DNA of 64,000 bases from NCBI RefSeq assembly GCF_000384415.1, contig NZ_ARVU01000001.1, forward strand, positions 186,001 to 250,000, in the 5' to 3' direction. Of the stretch, positions 5,158-15,408 are shown in pieces. The notes under the pieces were generated by a model that saw only the letters and a list, made by a program, of their open reading frames with translations, was not told the DNA's origin and made no database searches. Position numbers and translations under genes: made by a program. Origin of the DNA: Cycloclasticus pugetii PS-1. Its GTDB lineage: Bacteria > Pseudomonadota > Gammaproteobacteria > Methylococcales > Cycloclasticaceae. Every line of letters begins with the position of its first letter. The stretch's first letter is position 1.

Positions 5158-7293
5158 TTAACTAGTACGTTGCCAAATACTCAGCTGACTAAAGCTGTGC
5201 TGAAATTTTCGACTGGTATCGCGAATAACAAAGGGCACATCGGTGGGGTCGTTAACTAATTTAAAATGCTCACCTAAGTGATCTTTTAAGCCTTCTAAGG
5301 TGGAATATGGCTCGCCATCCTTACGAATGCCGCCTAACCAGTTTTCTTTAGGCGTGAACTCTTCCAGCCATGTGTATGGTGAAGCAATGGCCAATAGGCC
5401 GCCGACGTTAATTCTGTGGCGAATATCATTTAGGAAAACGGCGGGTGTGCGTAAACGGTCAATAAGGTTAATGGCCAGTACTAAGTCATAATTGGTAAAT
5501 TGTGGTTTTAGGTTGGTAGCATCACCTTGAAAAAACTCAATATTGTCGCGATTGTTGCTAAGGCCAATGTGCTCTAAAGTTTGTTCATGATAGGAGACTA
5601 TTTCACCTTCTTCGATTAGCTCATAATGAATTTTGCCTTTTTGCTGCATTTGATGAGCAATGCGGATAAAGCGCGCAGAAAAGTCGATGCCAGTGACCGC
5701 ATCAAAATGTTGTGCCAGTTCAAAAGAAGCCCTGCCAACGGCGCAACCTAAATCAAGTGCGCGAGTGGTGGGTTTATCTTGCAGTTGTTCCAAACATAAT
5801 TGAACACAATGAGCAGAAAGGTCTTTTACATCAAAGTAAGTCGGGCCGTAATGAAAGTGGCAATACTGAGAGACAGCGGTATCGGTTTCGTACATAGCAG
5901 ATGGTTTTTCCATAGGTTGTGTTGATTCTACATAGCGGAATCCCGCATGTTGATAAAAGTGGCGCCTAAAGGCATAGCGTGCGTGTTTGGTGGCCTCGTT
6001 GCCGGTTGAAATCCAACAGCCGCCTTTAATTAAATTATGTTGTGTGTCAAAGGTGGGGGTGGAAAAATCGTCATATAACGGGTGAACTTCAAAGCCATCA
6101 AAGCCACTGATGGGTGTTTCTGTCCATTGCCATGCGTTGCCGATTAAGTCGTGAAATTCGCCAAAGGCAAAGTGATCAACTGGGCAGGCAGATGCCCAAT
6201 GTTCCAGATTAATGTTGCCGGGTGCTTGTTCCCACTCTGGTTGGTCAGGAATATTGTGAAGCTGGTGTAAGTGTTGCCATTGCTCCTCGGTGGGTAGGCG
6301 AATAGGTTTTCCTTTCTTTTCGCTAAGCCAGTTACAAAACGCTTTTGCTTCTAAGTAATTGACCTCTGCTGGCCAGTTCCAAGGCATTTCTTGCTCTTCT
6401 AATAAGGTGCGAAGAAGGTAGCGATCATCTTTTTGTATCCAAAAAAGCGGGTGTTCGGGTTTTTTATATTGCACCCAGTTCCAGCCTTCTTCGGTCCAAA
6501 ATCTTTTTTGGTGATAGCCGTTGTCTTTTATGAAGCTGAGAAACTCAGCATTAGAAACAAGGTACTTACTGGCGGAAAACTCCTCAATATCGACAACTTT
6601 TTCACCGTATTCGTTATCCCAGCCATAGGTTTTGTGGTTTTTATCTTTACCAAGTTTAATGCGCCCACTTTCAACATTAAGCAGTTCATTACTAGGGGCT
6701 TCTCCTACATGAGGGCAAACATTCCAAGTGCTATGTTGCTGCAAATGTTCAAGCGGCATTTGGCGAATAATAGCGGAAGAGGTTTCAATATGGATACGTT
6801 GGTGCTCAATGCCCATAAGAATAGGCCAAAACGGGCTTTCCCAAGTAATCGGAAGCTCGAGCGGTAGGGTGCTTATAAGTGAATCAATCAGTGTTAAGAC
6901 GGTTTGTCGGTACGTCTGTACCTCGCTAATGATAGGCCAATCGTAATTGGCCTCATTCAAGTCATCCCACGACATTTCATCCACACCGACGGCGAAGATT
7001 GATTCAAAGCGCGGGTTAACACGCCGTTGGATCAGCGAGGCAAGGCTGAGTTTATTGATGAAAAAAGTAGCAGTATGGCCGTAATAAAAAACAAGGGGGT
7101 GACGGAGAGATTCAGGCCTTAAATAAAAAGCCTCATCATGTTTTAGTGTGCTGTATAACTGTTCTTCTAGCTGAAATGTTTTGTGTAGGTAGTCGCGAAT
7201 TTCTTCTCTTTTTTGTTCAACGGACCCTGTGTTCAGCAAAACTGTTTTAGTTATTTTTACGTCATGATTAATTTCTTCTGCTACGGATGACAT
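5158..7293 (-). CDS. ovoA: 5-histidylcysteine sulfoxide synthase / 4-mercaptohistidine N1-methyltransferase (OvoA)
   Basis: OvoA joins cysteine to the histidine ring with O2 using non-haem iron. Its methyltransferase end can add the N-methyl group of ovothiol. Three parts are visible in 711 aa. A DinB-like helical domain (about 35-185) holds the putative iron histidines H73, H164 and H168 (motif HQRIHIE). A formylglycine-generating-enzyme-like domain (about 205-455) includes GNAWQWTETP. A SAM-dependent methyltransferase (about 480-711) has the ALDLGCAVGRAS motif. This length and order are typical of OvoA, whereas EgtB lacks the fused C-terminal methyltransferase. The ATG at 7291-7293 has a GAGGGG ribosome site. 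The PLP lyase OvoB that should complete the pathway is not in this window. Confidence 0.93.
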   Translation of the reverse strand: MSSVAEEINHDVKITKTVLLNTGSVEQKREEIRDYLHKTFQLEEQLYSTLKHDEAFYLRPESLRHPLVFYYGHTATFFINKLSLASLIQRRVNPRFESIFAVGVDEMSWDDLNEANYDWPIISEVQTYRQTVLTLIDSLISTLPLELPITWESPFWPILMGIEHQRIHIETSSAIIRQMPLEHLQQHSTWNVCPHVGEAPSNELLNVESGRIKLGKDKNHKTYGWDNEYGEKVVDIEEFSASKYLVSNAEFLSFIKDNGYHQKRFWTEEGWNWVQYKKPEHPLFWIQKDDRYLLRTLLEEQEMPWNWPAEVNYLEAKAFCNWLSEKKGKPIRLPTEEQWQHLHQLHNIPDQPEWEQAPGNINLEHWASACPVDHFAFGEFHDLIGNAWQWTETPISGFDGFEVHPLYDDFSTPTFDTQHNLIKGGCWISTGNEATKHARYAFRRHFYQHAGFRYVESTQPMEKPSAMYETDTAVSQYCHFHYGPTYFDVKDLSAHCVQLCLEQLQDKPTTRALDLGCAVGRASFELAQHFDAVTGIDFSARFIRIAHQMQQKGKIHYELIEEGEIVSYHEQTLEHIGLSNNRDNIEFFQGDATNLKPQFTNYDLVLAINLIDRLRTPAVFLNDIRHRINVGGLLAIASPYTWLEEFTPKENWLGGIRKDGEPYSTLEGLKDHLGEHFKLVNDPTDVPFVIRDTSRKFQHSFSQLSIWQRTS

Positions 7294-11715: not shown

Positions 11716-11743
11716 CTTGCGTATATAAATATTGGATAGGTTC

Positions 11744-14461
11744 ATGGCTGAAAAAACATTGGTATTGGTAGATGGCTCTTCTTACTTATTTCGTGCCTAT
11801 CATGCACTGCCATTATTAACAAACTCAAAAGGTGAATACACCAACGCCATTTTAGGCGTAACAAACATGCTTAAAAAACTGGTTGAGACGTACCCAGAGG
11901 CATATTTTGGAGTCATATTTGATGCCCCAGGAAAAACGTTTCGTAATGATATGTATCCTGAGTATAAAGCCAACAGGGCGTCAATGCCTGACGAGTTGCG
12001 AGAGCAAATTAAGCCATTACATCAGTTAATAAAAGCAATGGGGCTACCTTTAGTTATGGAGCCAGGTGTTGAGGCGGATGATGTGATCGGTACATTGGCT
12101 AAGCAGGCCGAAGAGGAAGATCTTAATGTTGTTATTTCAACAGGCGATAAAGACATTGCGCAGCTGGTCACCAATAAAACGTCATTAATTAACACAATGA
12201 ATAACCAATGGCTGGACGAAGAAGGCGTGAAGGAAAAGTTTGGTGTGCCGCCTGACATGATTATTGATTATTTAGCCTTGATGGGCGATACCTCCGACAA
12301 TATTCCGGGTGTGCCTAAAGTGGGACCAAAAACGGCTACAAAGTGGCTCAATGCATACGGTTCACTGGATGAAATTATCGCAAGGGCTGATGAAGTAAAA
12401 GGCAAAGTAGGTGAGAGTTTGCGTGATCACCTTGATGCGATTCCGTTATCAAAAGAGCTCGTAACGATTAAATGTGATGTACCGTTAGATAAGGCTCCGG
12501 CGGATTTAATAAGAACGCAGCCGGATACAGAAACCTTAAAGGAGATGGTAAGCCATTATGAGTTTAATTCATGGTTAAAACAGTTGGGTGGAACAAAGGC
12601 GTCGACGGTTGCCAGCGAACAGGTGGATGAGAAACCGTTACCGGCAAAAACTGAATTAACCGTAGAAACGATTCTAGATGAAGCAACATTTAACCAATGG
12701 TTGGCAAAGCTGACAGAGGCAGAGTTGTTTGCCTTTGATACCGAAACAACACATTTAGACTATACGAAAGCGTTGGTCGTGGGTGTTTCATTTGCTATTG
12801 AAGCAGGTCATGCGGCCTATGTTCCGTTGGCTCATAGCTATCCCGGTGCGCCACAACAACTATCTAGGCAATGGGTGCTGGATCAATTAAAACCCTTGTT
12901 GGAGTCAGAAAGTGCTCGTAAGGTCGGTCAAAATCTTAAATATGATGCGAACGTGCTTGCTAATCACGGTATTAGCTTGGCGGGAATTTGTCACGATACT
13001 ATGCTTCAGTCTTACGTTTTAAATAGCACTGCGTCGCGGCACAATATGGATGCCTTGGCTGAAAAATACTTGGGGCAAGAAACTATTCATTACGAAGATG
13101 TGGCGGGTAAAGGCGCAAAACAAATATGTTTTGATCAAGTGTCTATTGAGCTGGCAGCACCTTACGCAGCGGAAGATGCTGATATTACGTTACGTTTGCA
13201 TCAGCATATTTTTCCTCAGTTAAAGCAAATAGACAGTTTGGCAACGGTCTATGAAACGATAGAAATGCCACTGGTGCCTGTGTTAGCCAGAATGGAGCAA
13301 ACAGGGGTGTTGGTTGATGAGCAAATGTTAAGCCAGCAAAGTGGCGAATTAACAGCCAGCATTAAAGCCTTGGAAACGCAGGCCCATGAGGCTGCGGGCC
13401 AACCATTTAATCTGGGGTCGCCAAAGCAAATTCAAGAGATTCTGTACGATAAATTAGGCTTGCCAGTCTTAAAGAAAACACCCAAGGGTCAACCTTCGAC
13501 GGCGGAGAGCGTTTTGCAAGATTTAGCCGTTGACTTTCCCTTGCCGCGCTTGATTCTTGAGCACCGTAGTTTGAGTAAGTTACGCTCAACCTATACCGAT
13601 AAATTACCAAAACAAATTAACCCAGTAACTGGGCGTGTGCATACTTCCTATCACCAAGCGGTTGCGGCAACGGGACGATTATCTTCATCTGATCCGAATT
13701 TACAGAATATTCCGGTACGCAGTGAAGAAGGTCGAAGGATTCGCCAAGCATTTATTGCAGAGGAAGGCTTTACTGTCATGGCAGCTGATTATTCACAAAT
13801 TGAGTTGCGGATTATGGCGCATTTATCGCAAGACACGGGGCTTTTGCAAGCCTTTAAAGAGGGTTTAGATGTGCATAAGGCAACAGCAGCAGAAGTGTTT
13901 GGTGTGCCCGTTGATCAAGTTGAGACTCATCAGCGCCGTTCGGCTAAGGCGATTAATTTCGGCTTAATTTATGGCATGTCTGCGTTTGGTTTAGCGAAAC
14001 AGTTAGATATTGATCGCGGCGCTGCTCAAGGCTATATCAATTTGTATTTTGAAAGGTATCCAGGCGTAAAACAATATATGGACGAAACACGTGAGCTGGC
14101 GCGTGAGCAAGGGTATATTGAAACGTTATTCGGTCGACGTTTATACCTGCCTGATATTCTGGCTAAGAATGGACAACGTAGGCAGTATGCTGAAAGAACA
14201 GCTATTAATGCGCCCATGCAAGGAACAGCGGCAGATATTATTAAGTTAGCCATGTTATCGGTGGATAATTGGTTGCAAGTTGATAAACCTGCTGTGCGAA
14301 TGGTGATGCAGGTGCATGATGAATTAGTGTTTGAAGTCGAAAACAGTTATTTAGATCAGGCCGCGAGCATTATTCAACAAAAAATGAGTGGGGCAGCATC
14401 TTTGGATGTGCCATTAGTCGTGGATGTTGGTATGGGTAAGAACTGGGATGAAGCGCATTGA
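11744..14461 (+). CDS. polA: DNA polymerase I
   Basis: PolA fills gaps and removes RNA primers. The 905-aa product has all three parts. The 5'-nuclease covers about 1-290 (LVDGSSYLFRAYHALP, GDTSDNIPGVPKVGPKTA). The 3'-5' exonuclease covers about 305-500 and is apparently active, with FAFDTETT and YAAEDADITLRL keeping acidic residues. The polymerase covers about 510-905 (DYSQIELRIMAHLS, RRSAKAINFGLIYGMSAFGL, MQVHDELVFEV). A TTG 12 bp upstream keeps the frame open, but the ATG at 11744 follows GGATAGG at good spacing and gives the family's MAEKTL-like start. It is followed by a probable small RNA and convergent engB. Confidence 0.97.
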   Translation: MAEKTLVLVDGSSYLFRAYHALPLLTNSKGEYTNAILGVTNMLKKLVETYPEAYFGVIFDAPGKTFRNDMYPEYKANRASMPDELREQIKPLHQLIKAMGLPLVMEPGVEADDVIGTLAKQAEEEDLNVVISTGDKDIAQLVTNKTSLINTMNNQWLDEEGVKEKFGVPPDMIIDYLALMGDTSDNIPGVPKVGPKTATKWLNAYGSLDEIIARADEVKGKVGESLRDHLDAIPLSKELVTIKCDVPLDKAPADLIRTQPDTETLKEMVSHYEFNSWLKQLGGTKASTVASEQVDEKPLPAKTELTVETILDEATFNQWLAKLTEAELFAFDTETTHLDYTKALVVGVSFAIEAGHAAYVPLAHSYPGAPQQLSRQWVLDQLKPLLESESARKVGQNLKYDANVLANHGISLAGICHDTMLQSYVLNSTASRHNMDALAEKYLGQETIHYEDVAGKGAKQICFDQVSIELAAPYAAEDADITLRLHQHIFPQLKQIDSLATVYETIEMPLVPVLARMEQTGVLVDEQMLSQQSGELTASIKALETQAHEAAGQPFNLGSPKQIQEILYDKLGLPVLKKTPKGQPSTAESVLQDLAVDFPLPRLILEHRSLSKLRSTYTDKLPKQINPVTGRVHTSYHQAVAATGRLSSSDPNLQNIPVRSEEGRRIRQAFIAEEGFTVMAADYSQIELRIMAHLSQDTGLLQAFKEGLDVHKATAAEVFGVPVDQVETHQRRSAKAINFGLIYGMSAFGLAKQLDIDRGAAQGYINLYFERYPGVKQYMDETRELAREQGYIETLFGRRLYLPDILAKNGQRRQYAERTAINAPMQGTAADIIKLAMLSVDNWLQVDKPAVRMVMQVHDELVFEVENSYLDQAASIIQQKMSGAASLDVPLVVDVGMGKNWDEAH

Positions 14462-14530: not shown

Positions 14531-14560
14531 TTGAACTTTTTTTAAAACGCGCAGTCTATT
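14531..14560 (+). promoter_or_regulatory. Possible promoter of the polA-engB intergenic small RNA
   Basis: TTGAAC (14531-14536) and TCTATT (14555-14560) are spaced by 18 bp, with four of six matches in the -10. Transcription would start near 14567, just at or inside the first hairpin of the proposed RNA. The match is moderate. The placement fits the RNA structure. Confidence 0.4.
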
Positions 14561-14643
14561 CAGTTGTATCTGTAAAGATATACTTGCTCATAAACTTCCC
14601 CTCCCCTTGAGCAAGTTTCCGGTTAGCAATAACCGGGTTTTTA
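14561..14643 (+). ncRNA. Candidate trans-acting small RNA (Spot 42/ErsA locus)
   Basis: In the polA-engB gap, three hairpins follow each other. The first has the stem TGTATCT/AGATATA (14565-14571 with 14576-14582). The second has the perfect 9-bp stem ACTTGCTCA/TGAGCAAGT (14582-14590 with 14608-14616). Its 17-nt loop reads TAAACTTCCCCTCCCCT. The third is a terminator stem CCGGTTA/TAACCGG followed by GTTTTT. The loop is complementary to Shine-Dalgarno sequences (GGGGAGG). Enterobacteria encode Spot 42 and pseudomonads ErsA at this same location, so a regulatory RNA is likely. No ORF of note is present. RNA identity is inferred from position and structure. Confidence 0.65.
14619..14642 (+). terminator. 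Intrinsic terminator of the candidate small RNA
   Basis: The 7-bp stem CCGGTTA/TAACCGG (14619-14625 with 14630-14636) has a GCAA tetraloop and is followed by GTTTTT. It could end the proposed small RNA or polA transcripts. Confidence 0.75.
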
Positions 14644-14647
14644 TAAG

Positions 14648-14684
14648 GCTCTAGGCTATTTGTATGGTTCTAGAGCTTTTTTTT
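14648..14684 (+). terminator. Second intrinsic terminator before convergent engB
   Basis: The 7-bp stem GCTCTAG/CTAGAGC (14648-14654 with 14670-14676) is followed by eight T residues (14677-14684), just before the engB stop codon. It would catch readthrough from polA or the small RNA on the + strand. Confidence 0.75.
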
Positions 14685-14689
14685 GCCTG

Positions 14690-15292
14690 TTATTTTTGTA
14701 CATTAAGGTGTTCATCCAACCAGTTATGTAGTTGTTCGATGCCTTCTTTTTTTAGCGAAGAAAATAGCTCAACTTGTACATTTCCAGGTGAATCTTTAAG
14801 TTGTTTTTGAACGGCAAACAAAGTGTTTTTAGCGTTATTTCGATTAAGTTTGTCGGCCTTGGTTAGGGCTACAAATACGTCCAAATTTAGATGAGTAGCA
14901 TAGTCAATCATTTGCCTATCGTACTCACCTAAAGAGCGTCGGATATCGACGAGTAAAACCAGACCGTGCAGTGCCTGCCTTTTTTCTAGGTAGCGCTCAA
15001 GCTCAGTTTGCCACTGTTGCTGAATTTTAGGCGGGACTTTAGCGAAGCCATAGCCGGGTAAATCAACAAGACAGCGCTGATCATCAAGCTTAAAATAGAC
15101 AAGTTGTTGAGTTCTGCCGGGCGTTTTGCTGGTTCTGGCGAGGCTTTTTTGGTTGGTCAATGTGTTGATGGCGCTGGATTTTCCAGCATTAGATCTACCA
15201 GCAAAGGCCACCTCATATTCAACCCCTTTAGGAGTTGTTTTGAGGTTGGGAGCGTTTAGTAAGTATTCTGCGCGGTGATAAAGAGGGTTCAT
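14690..15292 (-). CDS. engB: Ribosome-biogenesis GTPase EngB (YihA/YsxC)
   Basis: This essential GTPase of the TrmE-Era-EngA-YihA group helps assemble the 50S subunit. The 200-aa product shows G1 GRSNAGKSS, the G2 region TSKTPGRTQ, G3 DLPGYGFAKV, G4 TKADK and G5 FSSLKKEG. The frame stays open to a TTG at 15334, but the ATG at 15290-15292 gives MNPLYHRAEYLLNAPNLK. That start aligns with known EngB N-termini and is preferred. It is convergent with polA, as in many gammaproteobacteria. Confidence 0.95.
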   Translation of the reverse strand: MNPLYHRAEYLLNAPNLKTTPKGVEYEVAFAGRSNAGKSSAINTLTNQKSLARTSKTPGRTQQLVYFKLDDQRCLVDLPGYGFAKVPPKIQQQWQTELERYLEKRQALHGLVLLVDIRRSLGEYDRQMIDYATHLNLDVFVALTKADKLNRNNAKNTLFAVQKQLKDSPGNVQVELFSSLKKEGIEQLHNWLDEHLNVQK

Positions 15293-15408
15293 GTTACAAG
15301 CCAAGCGATAAATTTGTTTATTGTACCGGAGCAAGCAATTTGCAGTGGGGATAACAACAAATCACTTAGAAAAATACTAAATTCAATTAAATTTATTGTA
15401 AAATTACG

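Follow-up and report, generated by a model that had tools for sequence, protein, structure and literature searches.

The gap between polA and engB of Cycloclasticus holds a real, conserved small RNA (sRNA) that is probably driven by sigma E. From our structural and comparative genomic analyses, we conclude that this RNA joins the polA-linked C-rich sRNAs as a new member, lying by cut-off outside every single Rfam family. We consider it likely that the gap encodes a trans-acting sRNA of about 120 nt that is transcribed by sigma E, acts through a C-rich loop and forms the Cycloclasticus branch of a gammaproteobacterial family linked to polA-engB. Conservation, structure, promoter motif, terminator and family relationship, as well as the existence of genes for RpoE, RseA and Hfq, were established computationally. 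An unannotated gap is thus turned into a testable candidate for an envelope-stress RNA in an oil-degrading, symbiotic genus.

Description of the locus

The window, by which we mean the whole stretch of 64,000 nucleotides analysed, comes from a Cycloclasticus with a complete genome of 2.38 Mb. A -35 element, 14 nt, a -10 element, hairpins 1, 2 and 3 and a terminator hairpin follow one another between polA and a convergent gene which, from its family and position, we take to be engB.

11732-14461, + strand: polA (DNA polymerase I), upstream neighbour; 909-aa ORF, Pfam DNA_pol_A 548.8 bits
14532-14539, + strand: -35 element TGAACTTT of a sigma-E-type promoter; identical in 14 carrier Cycloclasticus genomes, GAACTT class-wide
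14554-14559, + strand: -10 element GTCTAT, 15 nt after GAACTT; GTC stands out at equal distance class-wide
14564-14684, + strand: proposed small RNA, about 120 nt; match to covariance model R1 at 14561-14684, 103.7 bits
14565-14582, + strand: hairpin 1, 7 pairs; conserved in the genus with covariation
14582-14616, + strand: hairpin 2, 9-bp stem (14582-14590 with 14608-14616); from fold and genus consensus
14591-14607, + strand: C-rich loop UAAACUUCCCCUCCCCU of hairpin 2, 17 nt; putative target-pairing site
14618-14637, + strand: hairpin 3; from scan, fold and genus consensus
14645-14684, + strand: hairpin 4, intrinsic terminator; hairpin 14645-14679 and T tract (eight T) to 14684, kept in 14 genomes
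14690-15295, - strand: engB (yihA-like GTPase), downstream neighbour, convergent; ORF, Pfam MMR_HSR1

The 5' end at 14564 is an estimate from the promoter position. Model R1 was built from 14 Cycloclasticus RNAs, the window RNA being one of these training rows, and scored 103.7 bits at the gap RNA versus 16.2 bits for the next best match in the window. Both 14550-14643 (z -4.93) and 14560-14686 (z -5.29) fold more strongly than dinucleotide shuffles, with 0 of 200 shuffles as low in either case. The first-pass annotation had placed three successive hairpins, a possible promoter and a terminator at 14531-14684, a span that matches the extent from promoter to terminator almost exactly. Its middle hairpin is present as described, with a 9-bp stem and the 17-nt loop, and the last hairpin with its T tract forms the terminator. 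The three hairpins stand, but there are four in all, because the small 5' hairpin at 14565-14582 is also conserved.

Two candidate features inside the RNA were rejected. The consensus terminator scan reported the hairpin at 14618-14637 as its sole terminator-like site; hairpin 3 was discarded as the terminator of the family, since most relatives have no long T tract there, as read from the genus alignment. A small ORF was discarded because the window has ATA where many relatives have an ATG at hairpins 1/2, and because loop lengths vary out of frame among relatives, as judged by eye.

Occurrence in the genus Cycloclasticus

The engB gene was detected in 15 of 18 Cycloclasticus genomes (E <= 6e-90), and 14 of these 15 carry the RNA; the three genomes lacking engB, with a completeness of 73-83%, likewise gave no R1 match. 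Absence of the RNA from genome G003 counts against our main explanation. In the polA-engB gap of that genome (L045), RNA and promoter are both missing and a different short hairpin is present.

Among the 14 carriers the -35 element is invariant; one row selection used TGAACTTT as a filter, the gaps having been inspected earlier without it. The genus consensus structure, derived from the same rows as the underlying plain MAFFT alignment (A2), comprises 31 pairs, of which 14 have changed on both sides, with at least one such pair in each of the four helices. The loop of hairpin 2 varies in sequence and length, its C-richness being constant. Aligning the gap in relatives had been suggested as a check at first pass, and this alignment finds stem pairing and the C-rich loop conserved in Cycloclasticus. 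Conservation and covariation across the genus support the reading as a structured small RNA equipped with a promoter and terminator of its own.

Promoter and sigma factor

What had been noted as a possible promoter proved to be a sigma-E-type match, the sole one in the window, with the architecture TGAACTTT-N14-GTCTAT. It fits the sigma-E consensus GGAACTT-N15/16-GTCTAA. The pattern TGAACTTT-N14/15-GTCTA has one exact match in the window and a mean of 0.00 over 100 shuffles, and a scan found no sigma-70-type promoter. Variants of the -10 element among the carriers are TAGTCAAA in G008 and ATTGACGAA in G016. The genome encodes RpoE (299.7 bits, cut-off 236.15), whose gene adjoins that of an RseA_N protein, and it also has an Hfq gene. 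Upstream of rpoE lies TGAACTC-N15-GTCTTT, as would be expected under RpoE autoregulation. Promoter motif and rpoE/rseA genes together suggest that the Cycloclasticus RNA is probably under sigma-E control.

Distribution in Gammaproteobacteria

We searched 301 genomes from the order and 369 from the class with R1. The order search gave 59 genomes outside the genus with a match at E <= 0.01, and the best match outside the genus of each search adjoins polA or engB. Among the matches listed, polA or engB adjoined 4 of 16 loci outside the genus in the order search and 7 of 21 in the class search; most of the weak matches lack this linkage, with neither gene at 12 of those 16 and 14 of those 21 listed loci. 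A model made from Cycloclasticus alone thus detects polA/engB-linked relatives in other families. A second weak R1 match in the window's own genome (1663493-1663619, 26.4 bits) was rejected as the end of a reading frame, presumably purA-like, with its terminator.

A wider covariance model from 29 sequences (R2), which contains no position information, matched 147 of 369 gammaproteobacterial genomes, in 114 of 271 genera and under 86 family labels. With one locus per genome and 18 of the 147 genomes left out, polA and/or engB lay within the flank of 107 of 129 loci, and of 98 of 118 when 11 training genomes were dropped; flanks were 1.5 kb for search loci and 2.5 kb for fetched loci, shorter at contig ends. 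Neither neighbour was present at 18 of 111 and 4 of 19 loci in two sets, which we count against our main explanation.

The promoter, never part of models R1 to R3, recurs with these matches. Exact GAACTT occurs within 70 nt upstream of 69 of 111 R2 matches, versus 0/111, 1/110 and 5/109 in the three next 70-nt control stretches; with at most one mismatch it precedes 100 of 111, and with one mismatch the control stretches gave 20, 24 and 36. When the loci are aligned on the -35 element, GTC is conspicuous at the expected -10 distance.

C-rich loops are widespread as well. The motif C[C/U]CC is found in the loops of hairpins 2, 3 and 4 in 107, 75 and 87, respectively, of the 112 class-wide rows of alignment A4. 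Three such C-rich loops are present in 54 of these rows and two in 49. In Cycloclasticus the C tract of hairpin 2 has been retained and has become longer. Pairing holds in 90.7% of cells versus 66.4% in shuffles, for an alignment fitted to structure, and covariation in alignments A3 and A4 is favoured because they were fitted in this way. The window RNA shares with the wider family four ordered hairpins, a C-rich hairpin 2 loop, a terminator, a sigma-E-type promoter and a polA/engB neighbour; for this membership it should be borne in mind that the window is a training row of R1, R2 and R3.

Relation to described small RNA families

An Rfam scan of the window gave no match at gathering thresholds, and the best sub-threshold match of the gap was anti-hemB (21.9 bits). 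At Rfam thresholds, the remark in the first-pass annotation that the RNA is not obviously either Spot 42 or ErsA stands, and in the covariance search that it proposed neither of these two models matched the gap at E <= 10; the RNA nevertheless shows a relationship to anti-hemB and sX13, and a weaker one to ErsA. Simple identity with Spot 42, ErsA, sX13 or anti-hemB was rejected, all four being below their Rfam cut-offs; that the window RNA passes no Rfam cut-off also counts against our main explanation.

Anti-hemB (RF02837), known as ncS04 in Burkholderia cenocepacia and described in PMC5688073 as a transcribed 105-nt RNA, shares the succession of a C-rich hairpin, a middle hairpin and a terminator, and the R1/R2 relatives L112, L113 and L145 exceed its cut-off at the same place. 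The window RNA, in contrast, scores 21.9 bits against that cut-off of 49.5 bits, G000 has no match at E <= 1e-4, and the best Cycloclasticus relative scanned (L044) reaches 34.6 bits.

The sX13 RNA of Xanthomonadaceae (RF02232) likewise lies downstream of polA and consists of three stems with C-rich loops, according to PMC3771888; it is reported to be constitutive and Hfq-independent. In the window RNA, however, only the hairpin 2 loop is C-rich; the cut-off of 50 bits is not reached, and the sX13 model matched neither the gap at E <= 10 nor G000 at E <= 0.001. A clear sigma-E promoter is missing from the two true sX13 loci; this, like the reported constitutive expression of sX13, counts against our main explanation.

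ErsA of Pseudomonas (Pseudomon-1, RF01719) occupies the polA-engB intergenic region with a sigma-E-type promoter, as does the window RNA; GAACTT-N16-GTCATA lies upstream of the reference locus L153, and ErsA is reported in PMC7565897 to be strictly sigma-22-dependent. It differs in that the hairpin 2 stretch of L153 is U-rich and its C-rich tract is in the terminator loop, and again the cut-off (50 bits) is not reached, without a match in the gap at E <= 10 or in G000 at E <= 0.001. Spot 42 of E. coli sits in the polA-yihA gap, and the top R1, R2 and R3 matches in that region fall on spf, but with only 11.6, 19.3 and 16.5 bits; the Rfam Spot 42 model has no match at gathering in the window, nor in the gap up to E = 10.

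Relaxed-E Rfam scans covered 36 loci, namely 33 of the family, two of Cycloclasticus and L153. Anti-hemB was over its cut-off at L112, L113 and L145 and under it at many more; at the positions of our model matches, sX13 reached up to 38.9 bits and, besides L153, ErsA up to 35 bits. In 229 genomes of the class, anti-hemB matched 92 at E <= 1e-4 (11 over cut-off), and at E <= 1e-3 sX13 matched 10 (2 over cut-off) and ErsA 9 (1 over cut-off). Matches of these Rfam models overlapped the 150 listed R2 matches in 70 of 104 cases for anti-hemB, 4 of 9 for ErsA and 2 of 10 for sX13. PolA and/or engB adjoin 8 of 9 ErsA-model, 6 of 10 sX13-model and 16 of 20 fetched anti-hemB loci.

That these polA-linked C-rich sRNAs (the Cycloclasticus RNA, anti-hemB, sX13 and ErsA) arose repeatedly and merely look alike seems to us unlikely, although it is the likeliest of the alternatives. 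C-rich loops and G+C-rich terminators inflate scores unaided, and among 14 named controls the sX13 model responds below cut-off in Thermus composti and the anti-hemB model in Caulobacter vibrioides. Applied directly to true ErsA, sX13 and Spot 42, R1 gives only 7-12 bits, within a window background of up to 16.2, which we also count against our main explanation; the link to the named RNAs therefore runs through intermediates. Such intermediates argue against convergence: L096 scores 50.4 bits with R1 and 38.9 with Rfam sX13, and L113 scores 38 with R1 and 57.9 with anti-hemB. A third model (R3, 112 rows), from which the three true, over-cut-off sX13 and ErsA loci were excluded, separates them from background, with 34.8 and 33.3 bits for true sX13 and 24.8 bits for true ErsA; in the same 37 kb the best off-candidate match was 11.5 bits (opposite strand of one) or 10.5 bits (elsewhere), and in the window background rose to 12.8. 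The rows of R3 do include sub-cut-off sX13-like loci, such as the G470 array, and none of the 147 R2 genomes has the family labels (f20, f167) of the over-cut-off sX13/ErsA loci. Position and hairpin order are common to all these RNAs, and so is promoter type, except in sX13.

One family behind anti-hemB and sX13 is well supported. The inclusion of ErsA has fair support, and ErsA is probably a member alongside anti-hemB, sX13 and the Cycloclasticus RNA; the Spot 42 scores are suggestive of homology, not convincing. We lean somewhat towards the view that the ancestor of the Gammaproteobacteria (as delimited in GTDB) had a single sigma-E-controlled, C-rich-loop sRNA next to polA, from which anti-hemB, sX13, ErsA, the Cycloclasticus RNA and perhaps Spot 42 diverged. 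Separate literatures would then describe one envelope-stress regulator. Our results suggest that three separately studied Rfam families may be one family with an ancestral RpoE-type promoter, in which case findings on ErsA and sX13 could be transferable to many genera where the RNA goes unrecognised. They also bear on the question, posed in PMC3771888, whether the polA locus of other bacteria likewise encodes such sRNAs. In the open-access literature searched, polA is mentioned both in the sX13 paper and in one paper on ErsA; we found no paper with both ErsA and sX13, and none uniting anti-hemB, sX13 and ErsA.

Proposed function

The gap RNA is most likely an envelope-stress sRNA acting through its C-rich loop. 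We infer transcription, sigma-E dependence, pairing and targets of the Cycloclasticus RNA, and with them every step that follows the promoter motif in the following proposal. Envelope stress would release RpoE from RseA, and RNA polymerase bearing RpoE would transcribe the RNA until its own intrinsic terminator ends the transcript. The C-rich loop, displayed on a strong stem, would then base-pair with G-rich segments close to the start of selected mRNAs, reducing their translation, perhaps with Hfq.

The loop might instead titrate a protein or another RNA without acting on mRNAs, and its variation in length and sequence within the genus while staying C-rich, as well as tandem copies at several loci, would suit such a sponge. 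We regard this as improbable: sX13 is reported to act by pairing, repressing its targets via C-rich loops and G-rich mRNA motifs that occur at non-conserved positions (PMC3771888).

A general anti-Shine-Dalgarno RNA, in which the C-rich loop imitates the 16S tail and so occludes many ribosome-binding sites at once, appears slightly less probable again. CCUCC is the anti-Shine-Dalgarno core. The loop contains it, and its mean pairing with 50 gene starts of the window (-2.88 kcal/mol) about equals that of the 16S tail (-2.84). Shuffled loops, however, pair as well (mean -3.21 kcal/mol; 96 of 100 as low), in a weak test, since it relied on first-ATG starts and even the 16S tail scored only -2.84. 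A second weak test found 17 sites of the form GGGGRGG-N2-11-ATG in the genome, one being the RNA's own antisense, whereas the reversed pattern used as control gave 11; of the other 16 sites, 3 open a frame of at least 100 aa. The earlier interpretation accordingly survives as a structured sRNA, whereas its "ideal anti-Shine-Dalgarno surface" found no support in gene-start pairing or genome site count.

Target prediction with the loop, also proposed at first pass, yielded one strong candidate, a 711-aa gene at 5158-7293 with FGE-sulfatase and methyltransferase domains, which we presume to be ovoA-like. Its start region GAGGGGAA pairs with the loop at -15.2 kcal/mol. The gene is present in 6 of 13 fetched relative stretches, where the relatives' own loops gave -9.1 (two), -8.7 (one) and -3.9 to -4.9 kcal/mol (three); this pairing is not conserved, and the candidate was rejected. 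Genome site search, window gene-start pairing and candidate comparison across relatives found no conserved target, which counts against our main explanation.

That there is no separate RNA, the hairpins being merely the 3' ends or terminators of the polA and engB transcripts, is very unlikely: the gene pair is convergent, the scan gave no other terminator between polA and the promoter and the models are partly composed of terminator-like hairpins, but a promoter is conserved between polA and the hairpins genus- and class-wide, hairpins 1 and 2 covary, and the related RNAs ErsA, sX13 and anti-hemB are each transcribed as an sRNA in the species that carry them, according to the papers cited above.

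Additional observations

Several R2 loci without polA or engB, among them L118, L120, L166 and L173, are good members located elsewhere or on contigs too short to reveal their neighbours. L118 and L120 have GAACTT-type promoters, and the RNA gene may therefore have moved.

At least two tandem copies are present at L224 (G470), L228 (G577), L121, L140, L141, L151, L184, L190 and L250, with four or more each in G470 and G577. The RNA gene thus seems to duplicate in place.

The alphaproteobacterial ar14 model gave sub-threshold matches at the same hairpins in L119 (1520-1631, 32.1 bits) and L147 (1516-1623, 38.6 bits), which possibly reflect a link to, or convergence with, the C-rich sRNAs of Alphaproteobacteria.
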